From positions 11,594,001-11,658,000 of the forward strand of contig NC_026657.2 of NCBI RefSeq assembly GCF_000004075.3: DNA of 64,000 nt, in the 5' to 3' direction. The position numbers were made by a program, and so were the translations under genes. This stretch comes from Cucumis sativus (taxonomy: Eukaryota; Streptophyta; Magnoliopsida; Cucurbitales; Cucurbitaceae). Numbering within the stretch: position 1 is the first letter of the stretch; each line of letters begins with the position of its first letter. Positions 16,564-55,335 of this stretch are shown here, one piece after another. The notes beneath the pieces are model-generated. The model made no database searches, was not told where the DNA came from, and saw only the letters and a list, made by a program, of their open reading frames with translations.

Positions 16564-19449
16564 ACAACACCCGGGCACGGGGTACGTAGTTTTGTGTGTT
16601 CATATTATGTTAATTCTGAGGACAATGTGAGAGGCAGCGTCCTTCGTTTGAATGAAATGATATGTTTTCGAGGGAAGTCGTTTTACGTTGGTTATGATGT
16701 GAGTGTGTGTTTGTGTATATAATGAAATCATAAGAAAGAGTTTGTTGTTCAAATCGTTTTTGGTACTTCAATCTTGATTTTAATTTTTTTATAACTCGAT
16801 CTTACCTTAAAATTAAAATAGCAATTTTCTTTGTTAGAAGATAGTGCAACGACTATTTCTATCTGATATATGTTAGGTATATATAGGTTTTGATAATATA
16901 TAATAATCATTTGTCATTTTGTAATCAATGGTGGTTGGAATGGGGTGTGTGTAACCAACCCATGTGGGTTACAAGATTTTCGTTGAAAACGAGTAACTTT
17001 AATTTAGAGCCTTCCCAGAAATGTTGAAAAATGGTAAATATTTTGTTATCCAAAGTGAGTGAGTGAGTGAGTTACAATGTGGGTATGGGTGCAACAAGAA
17101 GTTGGTAGGAGTGAGTTAGCTTACCCTTTGTCACCAACTACAGCAAATGGTATATACAAAATATTCACTGTAGTATTTTGTTGTTATATTTACTATTTAT
17201 TCTAAATTATTGTAATAATTCTTACTCAATATTCTAAACATTAACTATTATTAACTAATCTAACGTCTTTCTCGTATATAGAATAAAAAAAAATTGACGT
17301 TACAAAGTACAAAGGACCTACTATATCTAGTGTACAATATGATTGAGGAAAAACTTAGGTGTACACGGAAATGAAGAAAAATCTTGAAAAGATATGCAAT
17401 TTTCGTGGCTTCTATTGCACTTGGGTTCAAGGCTGTATTCAGCATTGGTAAGTTATTAATGTTGGATTTATTAAAATGGTACCTAAAATAAGTGGGAATC
17501 CAAAAAATCAAGAAGCAATTTAATACAAAGTAGTACTCTTCCACACACACACGTGTTGTGTATATTTCCTATTAATTCCCATGAACAACCTAAAACGTGA
17601 TCATGTCTTTTCATTTTGAAGCTGATGTTGGACTTCCTCTTTAGCATAGAGGTAGTAGTTGGATACTCATTCCGTTTATTTCAACTATTATTTATATGTT
17701 ATATATATATGTATATAAACATGGTGTAAATTTCCCCTTTCAATTTATACGAAGTTGGTAGGTTGGTAGTACTTTTAGCAATAATAACAAAATGTAGAAC
17801 ATGGTTACTGAGAAACCCAACAAGTTGTGATAAACCCAACAAATTGTGATAAACCCAACAAATTGTTATTATATTTGCAATTAAACTGTTAATTGACTAT
17901 GAAATAACGGTAGAGTGATTGAATTGAATCTTCTTAGAGTGATTGAATTGAATCTTCTTTGTTAAAAATTTGGTGTAATATTGTTGGCTCATTTTGACAT
18001 TTTACATTTGAAATTGTTATTATATTTGCAACTAAACTGTTTATTGATTATGAAATAACGGTTAATCAAATCTTTTTTGTTAAAAATGTGATGTAATATT
18101 GTTAGCTTGTTTTGACAATTTACATTTGAAATTGTTATTATATTTGCAATTAAACAGTTAATTGACTATGAAATAACAGTTGAATCGAATCTTTTTCGTT
18201 AAAAATGGGATGTAATATTGTTAGCTCATTTTGACAATTTACATTTGAAATTGTTATTATATTTGCAATTAAACAGTTAATTAACTATGAAATAACGGTT
18301 GAATCGAATCTTTTTCGTTAAAAGTGTGATGTAATATTGTTAGCTCATTTTGACAATTTACATTTGAAATTGCTATTATATTTGCAACTAAACTGTTAAT
18401 TGACTATCAAATAACGGTAGAGTGATTGAATCGAATATTTTCGTTAAAAATGTAATGTAATATTGTTAGCTCATTTCGACATTTTACATTTGATTTGATT
18501 CTCATTCAAAGTCTGTAAACCTAAAATAGTAATAAAGTATAATGATTCGTTAGTTGATTTGTTTACCTTGAAACCATCAATTTCAAAATTCTAAATTTTG
18601 GTAATTTGTTTAAACAATCAATTTGGATTTCAAAATTCCAAAATTTGGTAAGTAACTGAAATTCTAAATTTTGGTAAGTAATTGAATCTTGAACACTATT
18701 AAGAACTATGCTAATTAATCAAATTTAATACAATATAAAACACATGATTCTTATTGTTAAACAATAATTAAATACTAAACAACCATTAAAGATTTTTATA
18801 GTATAAAAATTTATGGTACGATCCCTAATGAAAATTGATGCTATATATTGCAAATTGGTCCCTAGACTCACATAAACTCTTTACAAATTAGTACTTTATA
18901 AAAGAATATTTCCAAAAAAGATAAAGATGAAGAGAAGACTTTTCAAATTATAAACTATGATTATTTTAATTACAAAAGTAGAGAGAAAATAGAACTCTAT
19001 AATTACACTTTTATAAACACAATTTTCAGATTCTCAACGGACCGAAAGGTGGAAACGGTGTCGTATTGGGAAGTCAATAATATAGGTAAAATTCGGAGGC
19101 GGAAAATAGAAAAAACTGAATAAAATAATAAATGACCCTTGGAAATAAAATGGAAATTATTAATAATAAAACGCCCCTTCAAATAAAATTGGAACAAATA
19201 AACAAAACCCCGCCACGGAGCGCGTGGGGCCAATGGTACGTGGTTGAGATTGAATGTGATGGGAACGCGCGGTTTCTGCGCGTGGGATGTTGTTTTTCAT
19301 TTGTTACTGAATCGTTCAAAGGCGCGAAGCCAAGTAAAGAAATTAAGAAATAAATAATTGAAAAATAAGAGAGAAAGAGAGAGAGAGAAAGAAAGCACAA
19401 ATTTGGAGAAGGAAGTGAAAGAAGAGGAAGGAGGAGAAGGAGAAGGAGA
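16564..19449. other. Intergenic region between LEA and CIPK genes, with tandem array
   Basis: Contains the LEA 3' UTR (to about 16740), a roughly 120-bp tandem repeat array (reported separately) and the CIPK promoter. The last 80 bp before the CIPK ATG are an almost pure purine (GA-rich) tract, probably 5' UTR. No gene was seen. Confidence 0.6.
17808..18490. repeat. Tandem array of ~118-124 bp units
   Basis: Five head-to-tail units begin at 17860, 18011, 18129, 18248 and 18367, each starting (A)AATTGTTATTATATTTGCAA and ending near GACAATTTACATTTG. The first unit is longer because of an internal 26-bp duplication (AGAGTGATTGAATTGAATCT, around 17911-17960). It is preceded by a separate ~19-bp AAACCCAACAARTTGTGAT motif repeated about three times (17812-17860). 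Non-coding. Confidence 0.9.
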
Positions 19450-26988: not shown

Positions 26989-29900
26989 ATGAAAGCTTCC
27001 GCCTCGCCTCATTCAAAAGCTCCATTCAAGTTCAGGATGTGAGTTCTTTCTCTCTTTCAACTCCATCTATCAATTCTTCTTCTTTTCATTTATTTCTCTT
27101 TCTTTATGTTTTCAATCTCTATCGAAGTCCGACGGCGGAGAATCTAGTCCCAATTCGTTTGGACATTGAAATTGACGGTCAGAGGTTCAAAGATGCTTTC
27201 ACTTGGAACCCTTCTGGTAATTCATTACCTTGCTCCTACTTCTTATGTTTTTTTTCTTTTTTTCTTTTAAAGCAATGTTGAATCATGTGTAGGAGAATAG
27301 CTTATGCTTTTGTTTTTTGAGTTTAGGGTTTTCTTTTTTCTCCCCAAACATATGCTTTTTGACATGGAAAAACTGAATTAATCACTTGCCCTTGCCCGCT
27401 GTGTTGCTGATACTATAGTGAAAGACTTTGCGAATTGAATTAATCCTCCATTGTGCTTCTTCGTTTTGGTATAGTATTTAGGCCTCAAATCGGTGTTTTT
27501 GAAAGTGCTTAAATGGCACACTAAAAGAACTTATAAGCGTGAGGCCTAAGTTTGTTCTCTAGTGAAATTAAAGTTAGATTAGATTACATGTTTGGTCTAT
27601 GAACTTTTAGGTTTGTCTTTTGTGTGTAATAGAAACTTAACCATAAACTTAAATAAGTACTTGACAAATTTTTTACCTTTCAATTTTTTTTTTGAAATAT
27701 AGGTCTATGATGTATGTGAGATTTTTTTAAAGAACTTTTTTTTTTATAATTCACGGATCTACTAAACGAAAAATTGAACTTTGTGTCTTACGAGCCATTA
27801 GATGTTCAATTTCGTATACGTTATGTGAATTTTGAATAATGTAATAAAAGTCATAGGACCTATTAGATATGAACTTAGAAGCTCAAGGGCTTGTTAGACA
27901 AAAAATTGAAAGTTTTGAAACCTATTAGATACTTTTGAAAGTTTAGAGATTAGAAGTGTAACTTTAAACTCGTACATACAAAAAGTAGTATTATGAATGA
28001 TAAGATATTGAAAAATTTAAGAAATTAGAGTTCTTTTTTGGGTAAGAGATACGAGTTGTGGAGAAAAATAAATATTTTCTTAAAGAATATCTGTTAGTTT
28101 CTTCTTCTTTGAAGGATTTAAAAAGAAATTAAAAACAACGATCTTCATGCACTGAGGGGCCTGGGCGTACTTCATTAATATTTAATGGTGTCTCGCTTGA
28201 AGCGCCTAGGATTTTTAAGCCACTGCTCGAAATAATATTTCTGTAGGTATAAGAATTAACCACATCCGCCATTATTTTCATAGCCGGCCCACCAATCTTC
28301 AAAGTGGTTTCGTCCAAAGACAACATGAGTTCTTAAGGTCACGTTTTATAACATTGTTTTTTATTTTTGAAAATTGTACTTGTTTCTCACAACTTCTATA
28401 CATAGTCATCATCTTTCTTAAGAAAATATTTGAAGTCTTAACCAGATTCCAAAAACAAAAACAAGTTTTTAAAAAACTATCTTTCTTAAATTTGGAAGTA
28501 TAACAAAACAAAGAAACTCATAGGTGAAAGTAGTGTTTATTTATTTAATTTTAAAGAACGAAATACCAAATGGTTATCAAACAAGGCCCAATTTTTTTAC
28601 CATGAGAGCTTGAGTCTAGGAGTATAGAGGTTATCTTACTACATTCCAAAACCATAGGCACCTTTGTGGCTTAGATTGAAAATGCCTGTTTTGCACTTTT
28701 GATAATATATTCAATATCATCATCATAATTTATGTTTATTCTAGATCCCGATTCAGAGGTGGTGGTCTTTGCAAAGAGGACGGTGAAAGATTTAAAACTT
28801 CCTCCGGCATTTATAACACAAATTGCACAATCCATTCAAGTAAGGACAATAGTCATCCGAACCTCCATCTCTCATTCTTCATGGATTTGAATGGTCAGCA
28901 TCAGCCTAAACCATGTTTCCTTTACATATTAAAAACAAAACAATGAAGTTTTGGAGAAGTGTTGAACAAAACACTGAAATCTTTGTTCTTTTTATTAATA
29001 TTTCTGAATTAAAAAATAACAGCTTAAACTTTAGCTTTATACTAAGGATAGTCATAAGGGCATTAGGTGACGTATTACCTTTACAGCTGGTTGCCCAAAA
29101 CTTGAAATTTCTACATTTCAGCTGCAATTTGAAGAATTAAAGCACAGTCAGCTAACTAATATTAACCAGTACAGATGCTAAATAAATACATCAAATTCCC
29201 TCCTCCTAATAAAAACTCGTCCTCGAGTTTTACGCTGAAATTTGCGGCTGGTTGGGTGGAAAAGATTCAAAGATATCGGCTGTGTTGAAGATAGGATTGA
29301 TATGTATGTGATCTGGTAAATCAATCTTGTATGCATTGTTCCCGAGTTTCTTTATTATTCAATAAGGTTTTATCTTTTTTGGCTGTAATTTACTGTATTT
29401 TCCAGCTGGAAGTCTTGCCTTTCGAAGGTATATCATGACTAGATCTTCTTCTTTAAATTCTTTGAATCTTCTACGTTTGTCGGCTTGTTATAGCCTTCTT
29501 TCATCTACTCTAGTTGATATACTACATTTTTGTGCAATTTTGCTATCCTTTCCACCATGTTCTCGGCTTCAATGCTAAGATCAACATTAGAAGTAATATT
29601 AGCAAGGTCATCAGTTAATCTAGGTAATTTATTGTAAACAATCTCAAATGGTGACTTCCCCGTTGATCTATTCTTCATATGATTGTAGGCGAACTTGGCT
29701 TGTGCTAAGACGAGGTCGGTTTAGTTTTGTTTCCCCCGATTCATCTTATGAGGTTGGCTAGGGTTCTATTGGTGACTTCGGTTGAAGTCCTCGGGGAAAG
29801 AGTCTCTGGTTCCAAGGGTTGCTCGTCGACACCCTTTCCTTTATTGGCATTGGTTGGGTTCCTTCCCACCATGAGTCCCTTCTTCAAGAGCTCTGATACC

Positions 29901-32092
29901 GAGTTGATGAAGTCTTGGAGAAGTGTTGGAACAAAACACTGAAATCTTTAATCTCTTATTAATATTTCTGAATTAAAAAATAACAGCCTAAACCCTTACA
30001 ACCGGTTGGCCAAAGCTTTTATACTAAGGATAGTCATAAAGGCAGTAGGTGACTAATCACCTTTACAACCGGTTGGCCAAAACTAGAAATTACTAATTCC
30101 AGCAGCAACTTAAAGACTTAAAGCACAGTCAGCTAACCAATATTAACCAATACAGATGCTAACTAAATACATTACAAAACCTTCAAACTTAAATCAATAC
30201 CTTTAATCAAATCTTGATCTGCCATCAAATTCACTCATATATTTTCTTTGGTTTTTGCTTATCAGTCACAGCTTACAGAATTTCGATCCTTTGAAGGTCA
30301 AGATATGTATACTGGTGAAAAAATCATTCCAATCAAGGTTTGTCTTGTTGGCGTTTTGGTATCGATCTCTTGATTACTTCCTCCCTTTATCATTATTCTA
30401 CAGCTTGATGCCACATAACTCAATTCTGTTTCTTTCCCAGCTTGATCTTCGAGTGAACAATACACTCATAAAGGATCAGTTTCTGTGGGTAAAGTCGAAC
30501 GTACTCTTGATACATTTGACTGGAACATATATATTTATTAAGCTTACTTGTGCATTATGATATGCCTTTTAGGACTTGAACAACTATGAGAGCGATCCTG
30601 AAGAGTTCTCCAGGACATTATGCAAAGATTTGGGCATTGACGACCCTGAAGTTGGAGTAAGTGAAGTACAATTGAATTTGTAAATGTACAAAATAATAGA
30701 ACCTTTTGTTCCAAGTAATTTGGTTTCTTCAGTCATGAAAAGGCATGTACTTTAAAGGGATGGATTGTCAATGAGCTATTTCCATCTAGTGCCCTCCTGT
30801 ATGTGTTTTTCTCCAACTGTTTGATACAATGAGAATTTCATTTATTTTTGTGAGGTAGCCTGCAATTGCTGTTGCCATTAGAGAACAGCTCTATGAGGTT
30901 TGTTTTTTCTTTTCCAAATGACTATATATATATTCTCTAGTTCTGTTAGAAATCTGAATGATTTATTTCATGACTGCATCTTCATGTGTCCATGTTCCAG
31001 ATAGCAGTGCAAAATGTTGCTTCAGCAAGAGAAAGCAGAATGAGCAAGAAGGGTCGCCGAGGGTTTGAGCATGTTCCAGTAAGGTATCAATTTAGATATT
31101 CTAAACTGTGCATTGTTTCTTGTTTTCTTTGTAATCAGCTGCGTTGCAGCAAGACTAAATGTTTACCCTTTGATCGTGCCTTTCTCTGTTTGCAACAGTA
31201 AAACTGGAGGTGCTTCAGTGGACTTGGTGAAGTTATTTGGTCATAGATCAAGTGTTGTTCGGTTAGTCTATTCCCTATTTATCTATTTATTATTATTATT
31301 ATTATTTTGGAATGATTAGTCTATCCCTCGTTGCTTATGGATTTTCCTTTTATTTTCTCTCTCTTATCTAACCTAAGAAGTATATGGTATATAATTCGTA
31401 CATGATTATTTAATACTGCCAGTTATGTTTGTTTCCTGGTATCGTGTGTCTTTATCTTCAAGAGAGAGAAACCCATGGTTTTTCAACTTCAACCTAGAAG
31501 TTTAGGGTGTTTTTGGTTCTTGGGAATCATAAGGTGCTCATGTGAATGACAACTTATCTCAATTTTGAAAAAGATTCCCACATTTATGAGATATCTAGAC
31601 ATGCTGAGATGTCTCTTTCATATGCAGGTATCTTATTTCCATAACACTTAGTGCGGTTATGGGTATCTATATTTTGGGCAAAAAGAAAAAGTTATAATTT
31701 GTTCCTTGTGCCCTGCTTTCATTTTTTCATAAGATTAGAGCATACTTTTTTAATTTTAATTTTTTTAGGTAGTAGTTTATATTTATTATCAATGTTCTTT
31801 CTGTTACTGGTGAATCTAGACTATTTTATTTTCCAGAATCGGATAATTCACACCCCTATCTTAATGCCATTTACACTTATTATCTATTCTCAAGTTTTAT
31901 TTTAGAAGTTGGTTAAAAAGTACATTAGCCAATGGCTTGTAAAGTTATAAAAATTTGATGCTAATGACAGTATACACTTAAATGCAAAACAGGAAAAGGA
32001 AGGACTGGGACATTTACGAACCAATTGTTGATCTTCTATCCAACGAGGAAGTAGATGCCCTTGAAGCAAAAGAAGAGAGGACAGCTCGATAA
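26989..32092 (+). CDS. BSH: SNF5/INI1-type SWI/SNF subunit (BUSHY GROWTH)
   Basis: Ten exons: 26989-27038, 27128-27216, 28745-28839, 30266-30337, 30441-30488, 30573-30656, 30859-30897, 31001-31083, 31199-31261 and 31993-32092. They total 723 nt (240 residues), exactly the length I recall for Arabidopsis BSH. The SNF5 domain fills most of the protein: two related repeats (NLVPIRLDIEIDGQRFKDAF and IPIKLDLRVNNTLIKDQFLW), each followed by an acidic/hydrophobic helix pair (PDSEVVVFAKRTVKDL; ESDPEEFSRTLCKDLGIDDP). The tail is basic, then ends EEVDALEAKEERTAR. It is the core SNF5 subunit of nuclear SWI/SNF chromatin remodelling complexes. Intron 2 (27217-28744) holds a coding-like relic and intron 3 (28840-30265) holds a truncated gypsy retrotransposon in antisense. 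Splice sites are intact on both sides of it. Confidence 0.93.
28129..28326 (-). pseudogene. Coding-like relic of unknown family inside BSH intron 2
   Basis: 65-codon open frame antisense to BSH. Its composition (LSLDETTLKIGGPAMKIM..., then SSGLKILGAS, NINEVRPGPS) is much more protein-like than the flanking AT-rich intron, and the local GC content rises. I do not recognise the family. No splice sites clearly extend it. Could be an exon fragment captured by a transposon or a degraded inserted gene. Confidence 0.3.
28944..29193 (-). repeat. 3' LTR of the gypsy element in BSH intron 3
   Basis: About 250 bp, diverged from its partner by substitutions and small gaps (for example loss of one of two GGTTGGCCAAA copies seen in the other LTR), so the insertion is not recent. 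Confidence 0.8.
29908..30176 (-). repeat. 5' LTR of the gypsy element in BSH intron 3
   Basis: About 269 bp. It contains an internal short duplication: TTTACAACCGGTTGGCCAAA near 30060 and TTACAACCGGTTGGCCAAAG near 29997. The PBS starts about 7 bp from its inner end. Confidence 0.8.
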
Positions 32093-51880: not shown

Positions 51881-52519
51881 AAACATCACGTGGCTTATTT
51901 GCATGCTCTAGAAACCGAAAAAAAAAGAAAAAGAAAGATAAATTGTATTCTTAATGCAATTTGGATCTAAATCTTAGTCATTTCAATAAATCAATATAGA
52001 GAAGAAGCTGAACTAAAAAGGATAGTATGGGCATGATTTTGAATATAAGGTCAGTTTGAGACATGGTTTTTGATGAACTAAAAATTAACAACCAACTTTC
52101 TCAAAATCTAATTCAAACATATATTAGTTTTTATAACATACTTCAATCTATTTGGATAGTTTTATCTGTCATATTCGACTAATCAAGACATACATATCTT
52201 TAACAAAAGAGTTAGCTAGAAATTTGAATCTTTATTATCCAACGTGTTTTGTTGATAGATCAAAAAGGAAAAAAAAATGAATATTATCAATGATCGGATG
52301 ACTTTTAAATCTATAGACTAAATTGATACAAACCCTAAGTATCAAGCAACACAAATTTTACTGAATCTAAGTTAAATTACAAATTTAATCGCCTAAACTT
52401 TTGAAGGTTATTAAAATAAAGATCTGACAATATGATCTTTTAGTTTCAATTTTTTTTGAAGAAGTGTTTGGTTTTTGATTTTTTAAAAAATAGTTTTCGG
52501 TAGATTTGGAGAAATATTT

Positions 52520-53090
52520 TAATGTCAATGGGTTGCAGATTGGGGGAGATGGGTTCGGCTGACAACTTGTTTGTGGCTGCTGCAATAAGGCTTTATTGAT
52601 ATGGGTTTCCTCCTCTTTGGGATTTCCTGTTGTCCAATTTGGGAGGATCAGAATAAGGGTTGATAACTCGATACCTATTGCTCCTGTTAATTGCAAAGTT
52701 AAATGGGATTCTCCATTATTTTGATGAAGTTGCTGGGAATGGAGAGGCTTGTTTCGAGTTCACGTACCCATGAGTTGGACCCTTGCTCGAGTGATCAGAT
52801 TGATGTTGTGATCTCATGAGAGTGTGGGTGCGAGTCGCGAATATGGTTTGTCTTGGCACCACAGGAAGGGTGCCTTAAAATTAATGTTGATGCTGCCTGT
52901 TCACCCTTCAAAGATGGTATGGGTATGTGGACAATCATAAGAAACCATAATGGAGATGGGGTTGCAGCTGCAACTGAGTTTCGCCATGGTTGTTATGTGG
53001 GTGAAGGTGGAGAGATTTTTGCTTTCCTTTATAGTTTATGGTTTGCATTTGGCGAGGGAGATGGGCCTCGTGGGGTTTCGTACCACAACC
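52520..53090 (+). pseudogene. LINE RNase H (RVT_3) relic, copy 1
   Basis: The frame at 52853-53090 starts APQEGCLKINVDAACSPFKD and continues GMGMWTIIRNHNGDG..., GEGGEIFAFLYSLWFAFGEG. This is the plant retroelement RNase H-like (RVT_3) pattern (KINVDAA with the first catalytic Asp, IIRN..G, E..A). The upstream part (52500-52850) matches the second copy at DNA level (TAGATTTGGAGAAATATTTT, GGGAGGATCAGAATAAGG). Stops and missing RT domain show it is dead. Confidence 0.7.
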
Positions 53091-53134: not shown

Positions 53135-53177
53135 TTCCCACATCGGAAATTTACCAATAACAATACTAATATTTAAA
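53135..53177 (+). promoter_or_regulatory. U3 snoRNA promoter: upstream sequence element and TATA box (Pol III spacing)
   Basis: TTCCCACATCG at 53135-53145 matches the plant snRNA upstream sequence element (RTCCCACATCG) at 10 of 11 positions. TATTTAAA at 53170-53177 is the TATA-like box. The 24-bp gap between them is the short spacing that in plants specifies RNA polymerase III (Pol II genes have about one helical turn more). Start of the RNA is about 23 bp downstream of the TATA box. Confidence 0.85.
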
Positions 53178-53199
53178 TGGAAAGAGGAAGCAGTAGGTC

Positions 53200-53410
53200 C
53201 CGACCTTACTTGAACAGGATCTGTTCTATAGGTTGTACCTCTGTGTCCTTGAGTTCTAAGGAGACAAGAACCAAAGTCTGGTGGATGATTTCTGACTTGT
53301 GACTAGAGCGTGATTAACGGTACATGGACCCATGGTCCAACGGCTGTATAGGATCGTTCTCGGTAGCATTACTACTTCCGGGATGGTTGCAAGTCAGTCT
53401 GACAGACCCC
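53200..53410 (+). ncRNA. U3: U3 small nucleolar RNA
   Basis: Recognised from the plant U3 sequence: CGACCTTACTTGAACAGGAT at the 5' end; box A region GGATCTGTTCTATAGG (about 53217-53232); box C' GATGATTTCTGA (53284-53295); box B AGAGCGTGA (53305-53313); box C region in ATGGTCCAACGGC; box D GTCTGA (53397-53402); end GACAGACCCC. The 211-nt length fits plant U3. It guides early cleavage of pre-18S rRNA in the nucleolus by pairing with the 5' ETS and 18S. Upstream element, TATA box and T-run terminator are all in place, so it is probably an active Pol III gene. A few bases differ from the sequence I remember (first base, GTGGATGATT), so a recent pseudogene is not excluded. Confidence 0.88.
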
Positions 53411-53415
53411 TTTTT
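53411..53415 (+). terminator. Pol III terminator of U3
   Basis: Run of five T immediately after the GACAGACCCC end of U3, followed by further T-rich sequence (TTTTCTTTTTT), as needed for Pol III release. Confidence 0.8.
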
Positions 53416-54639: not shown

Positions 54640-55335
54640 AAAAATGGTGTTTTTAATAGGAGCAGTGCCTATAAGGTTTTTATTCAAATGAAAAACCAAG
54701 CCTCTTCATCGGTTGGTGGTGGTCATAATTTTTAGTGAAAGAAAGGTATTCTTCCAACAAAATTGAATCTTGCAAATAGAAAAATTCAAGTTGAGAGATA
54801 TGGTGCCTTGTTCCTTGTTTTGTGGGAGTGATTTTTAAGTCTATTATTCCTGCTCTTTTCTAGTGTAATCGTGCTTCCTAGATTTGGAGAAATATCTTAA
54901 TGTCAATGGGTTGGTAGATTGGGGGAGATGGATTTGGCTTGCGACTTCTTTATTTGTGGCTGCTGCGATGAGGCTTACTCATTTCCTTTGGGATTTTCTA
55001 TTGGGCAATTTGGGAGGATCAGAATAAGGTTTGCCATTATTTTGTGTAAACAGAGTGTGGGTGTGAGTTGAATGGTTTATGTCTTGGCTCCAGAGGAAGA
55101 GTACCTTAAAATTAATGTTCATGGCTACACATGTTCACCCTTGAAAGATGGTCTCTGTATGTGGGCAATCATAAGAAAGCATGATGGGAGATGGGAGATG
55201 GGAGATGGGAGATGGGAGATGGGAGATGGGAGATGGGGTTGGGGCTGAAACTGAAGAGATATATGCTTTCGTTTATGGTTTGCGTTTGGCAATTAGGGAG
55301 ATGGGCTTCGTGGGGTTTCCTTTGGAATATTGTGA
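54640..55335 (+). pseudogene. LINE ORF2 3' relic (zf-RVT and RNase H-like), copy 2
   Basis: In order on the plus strand: GVFNRSSAYKVFIQMKNQA (typical text just before zf-RVT), two stops, KKGILPTKLNLANRKIQVER (zf-RVT core, about 54745-54800), then after a gap the RNase H block (EEYLKINVHG..., CMWAIIRKHDG, EEIYAFVYGLRLAIREMGF) from about 55085. Same element family as copy 1, but with stops, a changed catalytic Asp (KINVHG) and a 7-bp minisatellite inside the domain. Dead. Confidence 0.7.
55186..55234. repeat. 7-bp minisatellite (GGGAGAT)7
   Basis: Seven perfect head-to-tail units interrupt the RNase H relic copy 2. Copy 1 has only one GGAGATGGGG at the equivalent place, so the array arose by expansion after duplication. 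Confidence 0.97.

Follow-up and report, generated by a model that had tools for sequence, protein, structure and literature searches.

A Pol III-type U3 snoRNA gene in Cucumis sativus and a genome-wide swarm of U3 5′ fragments probably made by internally primed LINE-type retroposition

The U3 gene of the window and its relatives

U3 snoRNA takes part in making ribosomes. A U3 snoRNA gene at the end of a LINE-like relic raises the question of whether a LINE helped to put the gene there or whether the two adjoin by chance. We addressed it in a 64-kb window (C3:11594001-11658000, the whole stretch of DNA analyzed) and in the 226.6-Mb Cucumis sativus assembly, which comprises 88 contigs (C1–C7, 22–41 Mb each). 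The first-pass annotation had proposed a U3 gene at 53135–53415, and the covariance-model search that it suggested recovered the gene: the plant U3 model RF01847 of Rfam matched window 53200–53408 on the + strand over model positions 1–221, that is, at full length, scoring 157 bits against a gathering cut-off of 80 (E = 1.4e-42). This was the sole Rfam match listed above gathering in the window, apart from a weaker hit of the same clan that overlaps it and was left out. The dicot-type Pol III promoter and terminator read from the sequence were likewise located, and the gene has the following parts, in window coordinates:

53135–53145, + strand: upstream sequence element (USE) of 11 nt, TTCCCACATCG, compared with the consensus RTCCCACATCG; holds the only exact TCCCACATCG in the window
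53136–53145, + strand: USE core TCCCACATCG, the sole match with 0 mismatches in the window
53170–53177, + strand: TATA-like box TATTTAAA, separated from the USE by 24 nt, a Pol III-type spacing
53200–53408, + strand: full-length U3 snoRNA, RF01847 at 157 bits, fold z −3.35
53200–53259, + strand: U3 nt 1–60 of the window gene, the segment dispersed genome-wide as short copies
53306–53317, + strand: GAGCGTGATTAA, which we take to be the box B region; the same in the alignment of the other four promoter-bearing genes
53397–53402, + strand: GTCTGA, presumably box D; the same in the alignment of the other four genes
53411–53415, + strand: T5 run TTTTT, Pol III terminator, read from the sequence

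The combination of TCCCACATCG, 24 nt and TATTTAAA (53136–53177) had a single match in the window and none in 100 shuffles. The TATA-like box begins at −30, and U3 starts 54 nt past the end of the USE, a distance that had been given as about 45 bp. The feature, with USE, 24-nt spacer, TATA, U3 and T5 in order, is a true U3 snoRNA gene of the Pol III type and, taken alone, an ordinary member of a known family. According to the available parts of PMC9845283, the plant USE has the consensus RTCCCACATCG, Pol III snRNA genes have it one helical turn closer to the TATA than their Pol II counterparts do, and U3 promoters initiate at A. The window gene resembles the Pol III U3 genes described there in RNA family, USE consensus, a TATA near −30 and the T-run, and differs from them by a C at +1 in place of the usual A and by a USE whose first base is T, where the consensus has R. 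At the aligned +1, the predicted start, the other four promoter-bearing genes have A.

Of 3491 first-look candidates in a genome scan with the Rfam U3 model, 29 places received a score, and 10 of these exceeded the cut-off. Five promoter-bearing U3 genes (USE plus TATA) were found in the genome: two in tandem at C3:32.52 Mb, one each at C3:25.93 Mb and C1:7.67 Mb, and the gene of the window. The USE core TCCCAYATYG is conserved in each of the five, as is, counted by eye, the 24-nt spacing between USE and TATA. The USE is absent from four further full-length copies (L014–L017) and two partial ones (L018, L019). Close to the tandem pair, a mid-U3 match at C3:32516576-32516597, which has no adjoining match to nt 61–82, is probably a partial third copy.

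Covariance scores were 168.6–173.6 for the four other promoter-bearing genes and 94.4–142.8 for the four promoterless full-length copies. A pseudogene-like score had been named as the observation that would speak against the gene; its 157 bits lie below the other four genes and above the promoterless copies.

The adjoining relic and the state of the gene

The gene was described as sitting directly downstream of a LINE relic with an RNase H-like frame, of which a second copy lacks U3. The two relics are:

52501–53079, + strand: LINE-like relic copy 1, with a zf-RVT end and an RNase H-like frame, outside the U3 gene; Pfam scores below cut-off
54879–55319, + strand: LINE-like relic copy 2, without U3; aligns with copy 1 in two pieces of 74% and 80% identity

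Relic copy 1 also aligns with pieces at C1:17.14 Mb and on C56 at 72–73% identity. The best match of its RNase H-like frame was RVT_3 (E = 0.02), and the open frame of the third relic copy, at C1:17.14 Mb, matched zf-RVT (E = 6e-4). Because both scores fall below the Pfam cut-offs, LINE identity is likely but unproved, and as read from sequence the assignment is plausible but weak. The order of relic and gene holds, although not as direct contact, since 56 bp lie between the end of relic homology, at 53079, and the USE, and 120 bp between that end and the U3 start. Relic copy 2 has no U3, in agreement with the earlier claim. Other repeats in the region comprise a short GGGAGAT run inside the RNase H-like region of copy 2 (window 55185–55240), a tandem array of four to five copies that repeats roughly every 119 bp (17860–18442), and a pair of direct repeats, 87–90% alike, separated by some 980 bp (29036–29191 and 30018–30172).

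The earlier suggestion that U3 was inserted here with LINE help draws on an adjacent LINE-like relic on the same strand. A retroposed U3, however, would lack the USE and TATA and would carry a target-site duplication (TSD), and the locus is the opposite on each count, leaving LINE-aided insertion unsupported. The gene has its own upstream promoter, the relic ends 56 bp short of the USE, and the TSD score is 2, compared with a maximum of 7 in 110 swapped pairs. None of the five promoter-bearing genes has a TSD at its RNA ends (scores 2–4, same swapped pairs), whereas the six promoterless copies score 4–12.5 (8–12.5 for L014, L016, L017 and L018, 4.5 for L015 and 4 for L019). A wider comparison of both flanks of the window gene yielded no more than a match of 7 nt (E = 0.92), and no junction mark was found between relic and gene. 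We consider LINE-aided insertion of the window gene extremely improbable; chance adjacency to the relic is the best explanation. A chimeric retrogene made of relic and U3 was rejected because the LINE lies upstream, which is the wrong order, and U3 has its own promoter; the window locus also lacks the mark of U3/LINE chimeras, in which a single TSD encloses the 5′ part of U3 fused to the 3′ end of a LINE. The LINE idea fits other U3 copies in the genome, many of which look LINE-made and occur elsewhere as 5′ fragments.

A separate issue is whether the window gene works or decays. Among the five promoter-bearing genes it has diverged furthest, with 3/90 differences from the majority of the other four in nt 1–90 and 36/120 in the rest. 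This skew alone is no proof of function, because L015, which has no promoter, shows the same one (3/90 vs 32/122 differences), and we dropped it as an argument. In favor of decay are the lowest score among the promoter-bearing genes (157 vs 168.6–173.6), the C at +1, the changed first USE base, a G-to-T change near box C in the conserved stretch UAGAGGAU, and pairs lost in the shared register (1/37, 117/151, 166/180 and several of one variable hairpin). The spacing from TATA to +1 is also one base shorter. These features suit a pseudogene that arose by DNA duplication including the promoter and is now decaying, a reading to which we give a minor share of the probability. Set against it, nt 2–88 differ from the paralog majority at nt 40 only, boxes B and D are intact, and compensating changes occur in the main helix: the two-sided changes 97/197 and 104/190 preserve pairing in the long 3′ helix and 129/140 does so in a hairpin, while the two-sided change 96/198 belongs to the C3:25.93 gene. 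Where the variable hairpin loses pairs in the shared register, the window gene's own fold has a six-pair hairpin. On the whole, the pattern of changes appears to favor an RNA kept by selection. The window U3 is thus best regarded as a real gene with a plant Pol III promoter that is probably functional, judged from sequence; we would expect it to be transcribed, and we favor an active over a decaying gene with fair assurance.

Short U3 copies across the genome

Searches of the genome with 22-mers, allowing up to two mismatches and counting the five genes, gave strongly uneven numbers along U3. The 22-mer of nt 6–27 occurred at 165 places and that of nt 38–59 at 110, as against 9 places each for nt 61–82 and nt 105–126; reversed 22-mer patterns, used as a control, occurred at 0 places in the genome. 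The 5′ 22-mers of U1 and U2 were found at 11 and 9 places, respectively. For U6, at least 45 of the 48 places scored were over the Rfam cut-off, with spans of 93–111 nt, that is, near full length. We fetched 99 of the 165 nt 6–27 places (100 listed minus the full-length L014), and most were short fragments of about nt 1–60 (for example, L040, L049, L050, L066 and L104). Removal of the five promoter-bearing genes left a sample of 94 copies, which includes the full-length L041 (identical with L015) and the longer L038. No USE core was found within 110 bp upstream of any of the 94, and Rfam at its gathering threshold detected 0 of the 10 short-copy loci given to it. Both 22-mers match in 37 of the 99 fetched places, from which direct scaling gives a rough copy number of 294, or nearer 400 if the remaining places behave like the two-mismatch class (4/28); neither figure is used as evidence. 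The C at nt 40 of the window gene is shared by few short copies, and the dispersed copies would derive from U3 RNA in general, not from the window gene in particular. One fragment variant recurs at C7:7603262-7727716, at C7:11123758 and on C53, the C7 occurrences forming pairs spaced by about 7.8 kb, and apparently rides in a larger repeated segment; L158 and L159 have identical junctions.

The copies begin at the start of the RNA and end sharply. Their alignment starts at U3 nt 1 in 53/94 and at nt 3 in 23/94, with CG, TG and CA at nt 2–3 in 45, 22 and 15 of the 94, so that the CpG has often decayed. The last matching U3 nucleotide falls at nt 55–64 in 62/94 copies, with a mode at nt 60 (26/94); 16 copies end at nt 65–75, 3 run past nt 75 and 13 stop short of nt 55. 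About half of the copies are flanked by TSDs: 48/94 scored at least 9 for a duplication whose end lay no more than 2 nt from U3 nt 1 and which resumed after the copy, compared with 8/1856 swapped pairs, with a median length of 17 bp (range 9–25). In a held-out set of 17 places, picked by the other 22-mer with one mismatch, 7/17 had a TSD vs 3/272 swapped pairs, all seven starting at about nt 58–64. The remaining 46/94 copies are below the threshold, and age may account for copies that have no TSD or match only below nt 55. The 48 duplications differ internally at 74/825 positions; the insertions are therefore not all recent.

Two of the 48 TSD-bearing copies repeat another copy including its flanks and were dropped, leaving 46 junctions. 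Microhomology between the target and the U3 end averaged 1.57 nt at these junctions, compared with 0.57 nt in controls with swapped left flanks (0/5000 shuffles as high); it was 0 nt in 11/46, at least 1 nt in 35 and 3 or more in 12. Including microhomology, ends lie between nt 54 and 78, with 34/46 at nt 58–63. The nick site has T at −1 in 26/46 and A at +1 in 29/46 (background 33% each), an enrichment only moderate over the A/T-rich background. There is no long A tail, the longest A run at the 46 junctions being 6 (2 of 46), and in a crude test 23/46 carry 1–9 nt between copy and TSD that could not be placed in U3. A SINE with a U3 head was rejected, as no body or tail is shared after nt 60 in the copies compared, those with TSDs among them, and so was a DNA transposon origin, because TSD length varies over 9–25, unlike a fixed length.

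These observations can be accommodated if LINE-type machinery repeatedly captures U3 RNA in this genome. An endonuclease would nick an A/T-rich target, the freed 3′ end would pair over a few bases with U3 beside the hairpin II loop, at about nt 55–63 (UUCUAAGGA), and reverse transcription would run from about nt 60 to nt 1, producing a tailless copy of ~60 nt between target-site duplications. Both LINE enzymes as the agent and internal priming as the step that fixes the copy end are what we infer from the junctions. The genome does contain reverse-transcriptase domains in long open frames, a set that pools LINEs with other elements. Hairpin II has a stem at nt 47–52/58–63 and a 5-nt loop at nt 53–57; the modal end at nt 60 therefore lies outside the loop, two to three weak pairs (G-U, A-U, A-U) 3′ of it, and priming there would require the top of the stem to open. 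Few copies end in the A-rich nt 70–77, which should prime well too. Taken together, a true Pol III U3 gene in the window plus a swarm made by internally primed LINE-type retroposition is the account we regard as probable, a confidence that we lowered slightly because the modal end sits beside the loop and not in it.

Another route to the same sharp end would be a pre-cut U3 5′ fragment (~nt 1–60), cleaved beside the hairpin II loop and then inserted by a LINE. The mode at nt 60 (26/94) is what a fixed cut would leave, and the cut site would adjoin an exposed loop; yet the ends of the 46 copies scatter over nt 54–78, at least 1 nt of target microhomology is present in 35 of them, A runs at the junctions are no longer than 6, and the available parts of Noll 2015 report that no such fragments of 5S or U2 were found in human data. 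We judge the pre-cut fragment unlikely. Scarcely probable at all is self-priming, in which the U3 3′ end folds onto nt 76–81 and primes cDNA that is integrated afterwards. A self-primed reverse transcription model is said to have been proposed for human U3 by Bernstein in 1983, and in the folded alignment the U3 3′ end does pair with nt 76–81. The model, however, predicts ends near nt 75, and only 3/46 lie at nt 69 or beyond (69, 72 and 78); nor does it predict target microhomology. Internal priming on U3 RNA remains our preferred reading of the copies.

U3 retroposition in a plant

Tailless retropseudogenes are described from therian mammals and also from the anole lizard (Noll 2015, PMC5322556). 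In the parts of that paper that are available, 42 snoRNA-derived cases are counted in human and plants are represented only by eight U2 copies in maize, a number read there as a sign that plants may place additional limits on random retroposition of RNA. For mammals, the same parts and those of PMC4476161 document truncation at single-stranded segments, homology at the junction, an L1-type nick, duplications and the lack of a tail, and explain them by target-primed reverse transcription begun inside the RNA. The cucumber swarm is like tailless retropseudogenes (PMC5322556) in its complete 5′ end, preferred truncation, missing A tail, TSDs and target complementarity, but it differs in its plant host, its single snoRNA source and an end that lies beside a loop, not clearly inside one. 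It shares grouped truncations, junction homology and a T-rich/A-rich nick with the L1-moved, 3′-truncated snRNA pseudogenes as described in the accessible text of PMC4476161; those are mammalian and derive from spliceosomal snRNAs, whereas the swarm is plant and derives from U3. U3/LINE-1 chimeras, as far as the available portion of PMC13174262 describes them, likewise involve truncated sense U3 moved by LINE-1. In the 46 copies with clear TSDs, by contrast, U3 and the second TSD adjoin or are separated by no more than 9 nt, and these copies therefore carry no fused LINE sequence.

Among the matches listed from the open literature, a coverage with subscription papers mostly outside, no title concerned plant U3 or snoRNA retropseudogenes. 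The accessible parts of PMC6172812 (maize ncRNAs) and PMC5122169 (plant snoRNA families), and those of PMC4838847 and PMC3747384, contain no U3 retropseudogenes. The remark on maize U2 in the available text of Noll 2015 (PMC5322556) is the sole plant case found in the literature covered; a plant U3 swarm may nevertheless have been mentioned before.

The U3 swarm is a known kind of retropseudogene in an unexpected host, a plant. It is somewhat probable, in our estimate, that dicot LINE machinery with relaxed template choice made some hundreds of tailless U3 retropseudogenes, with the loop-proximal end of hairpin II as the preferred priming site. The window gene provides a further native U3 promoter, and U3 sequence searches in this genome call for caution, as they yield mostly dead fragments. 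TSD-flanked U3 insertions are usable as cucurbit markers. The 165 matches of the U3 5′ end in a dicot suggest that high-density tailless retroposition is possible in plants. If the proposed origin is true, tailless retroposition would be shown to operate on a large scale in plants, a group with few reported cases so far, with U3 favored over U1 and U2, and the preference for one nuclear RNA and one site within it would be testable by comparing sequenced plant genomes.
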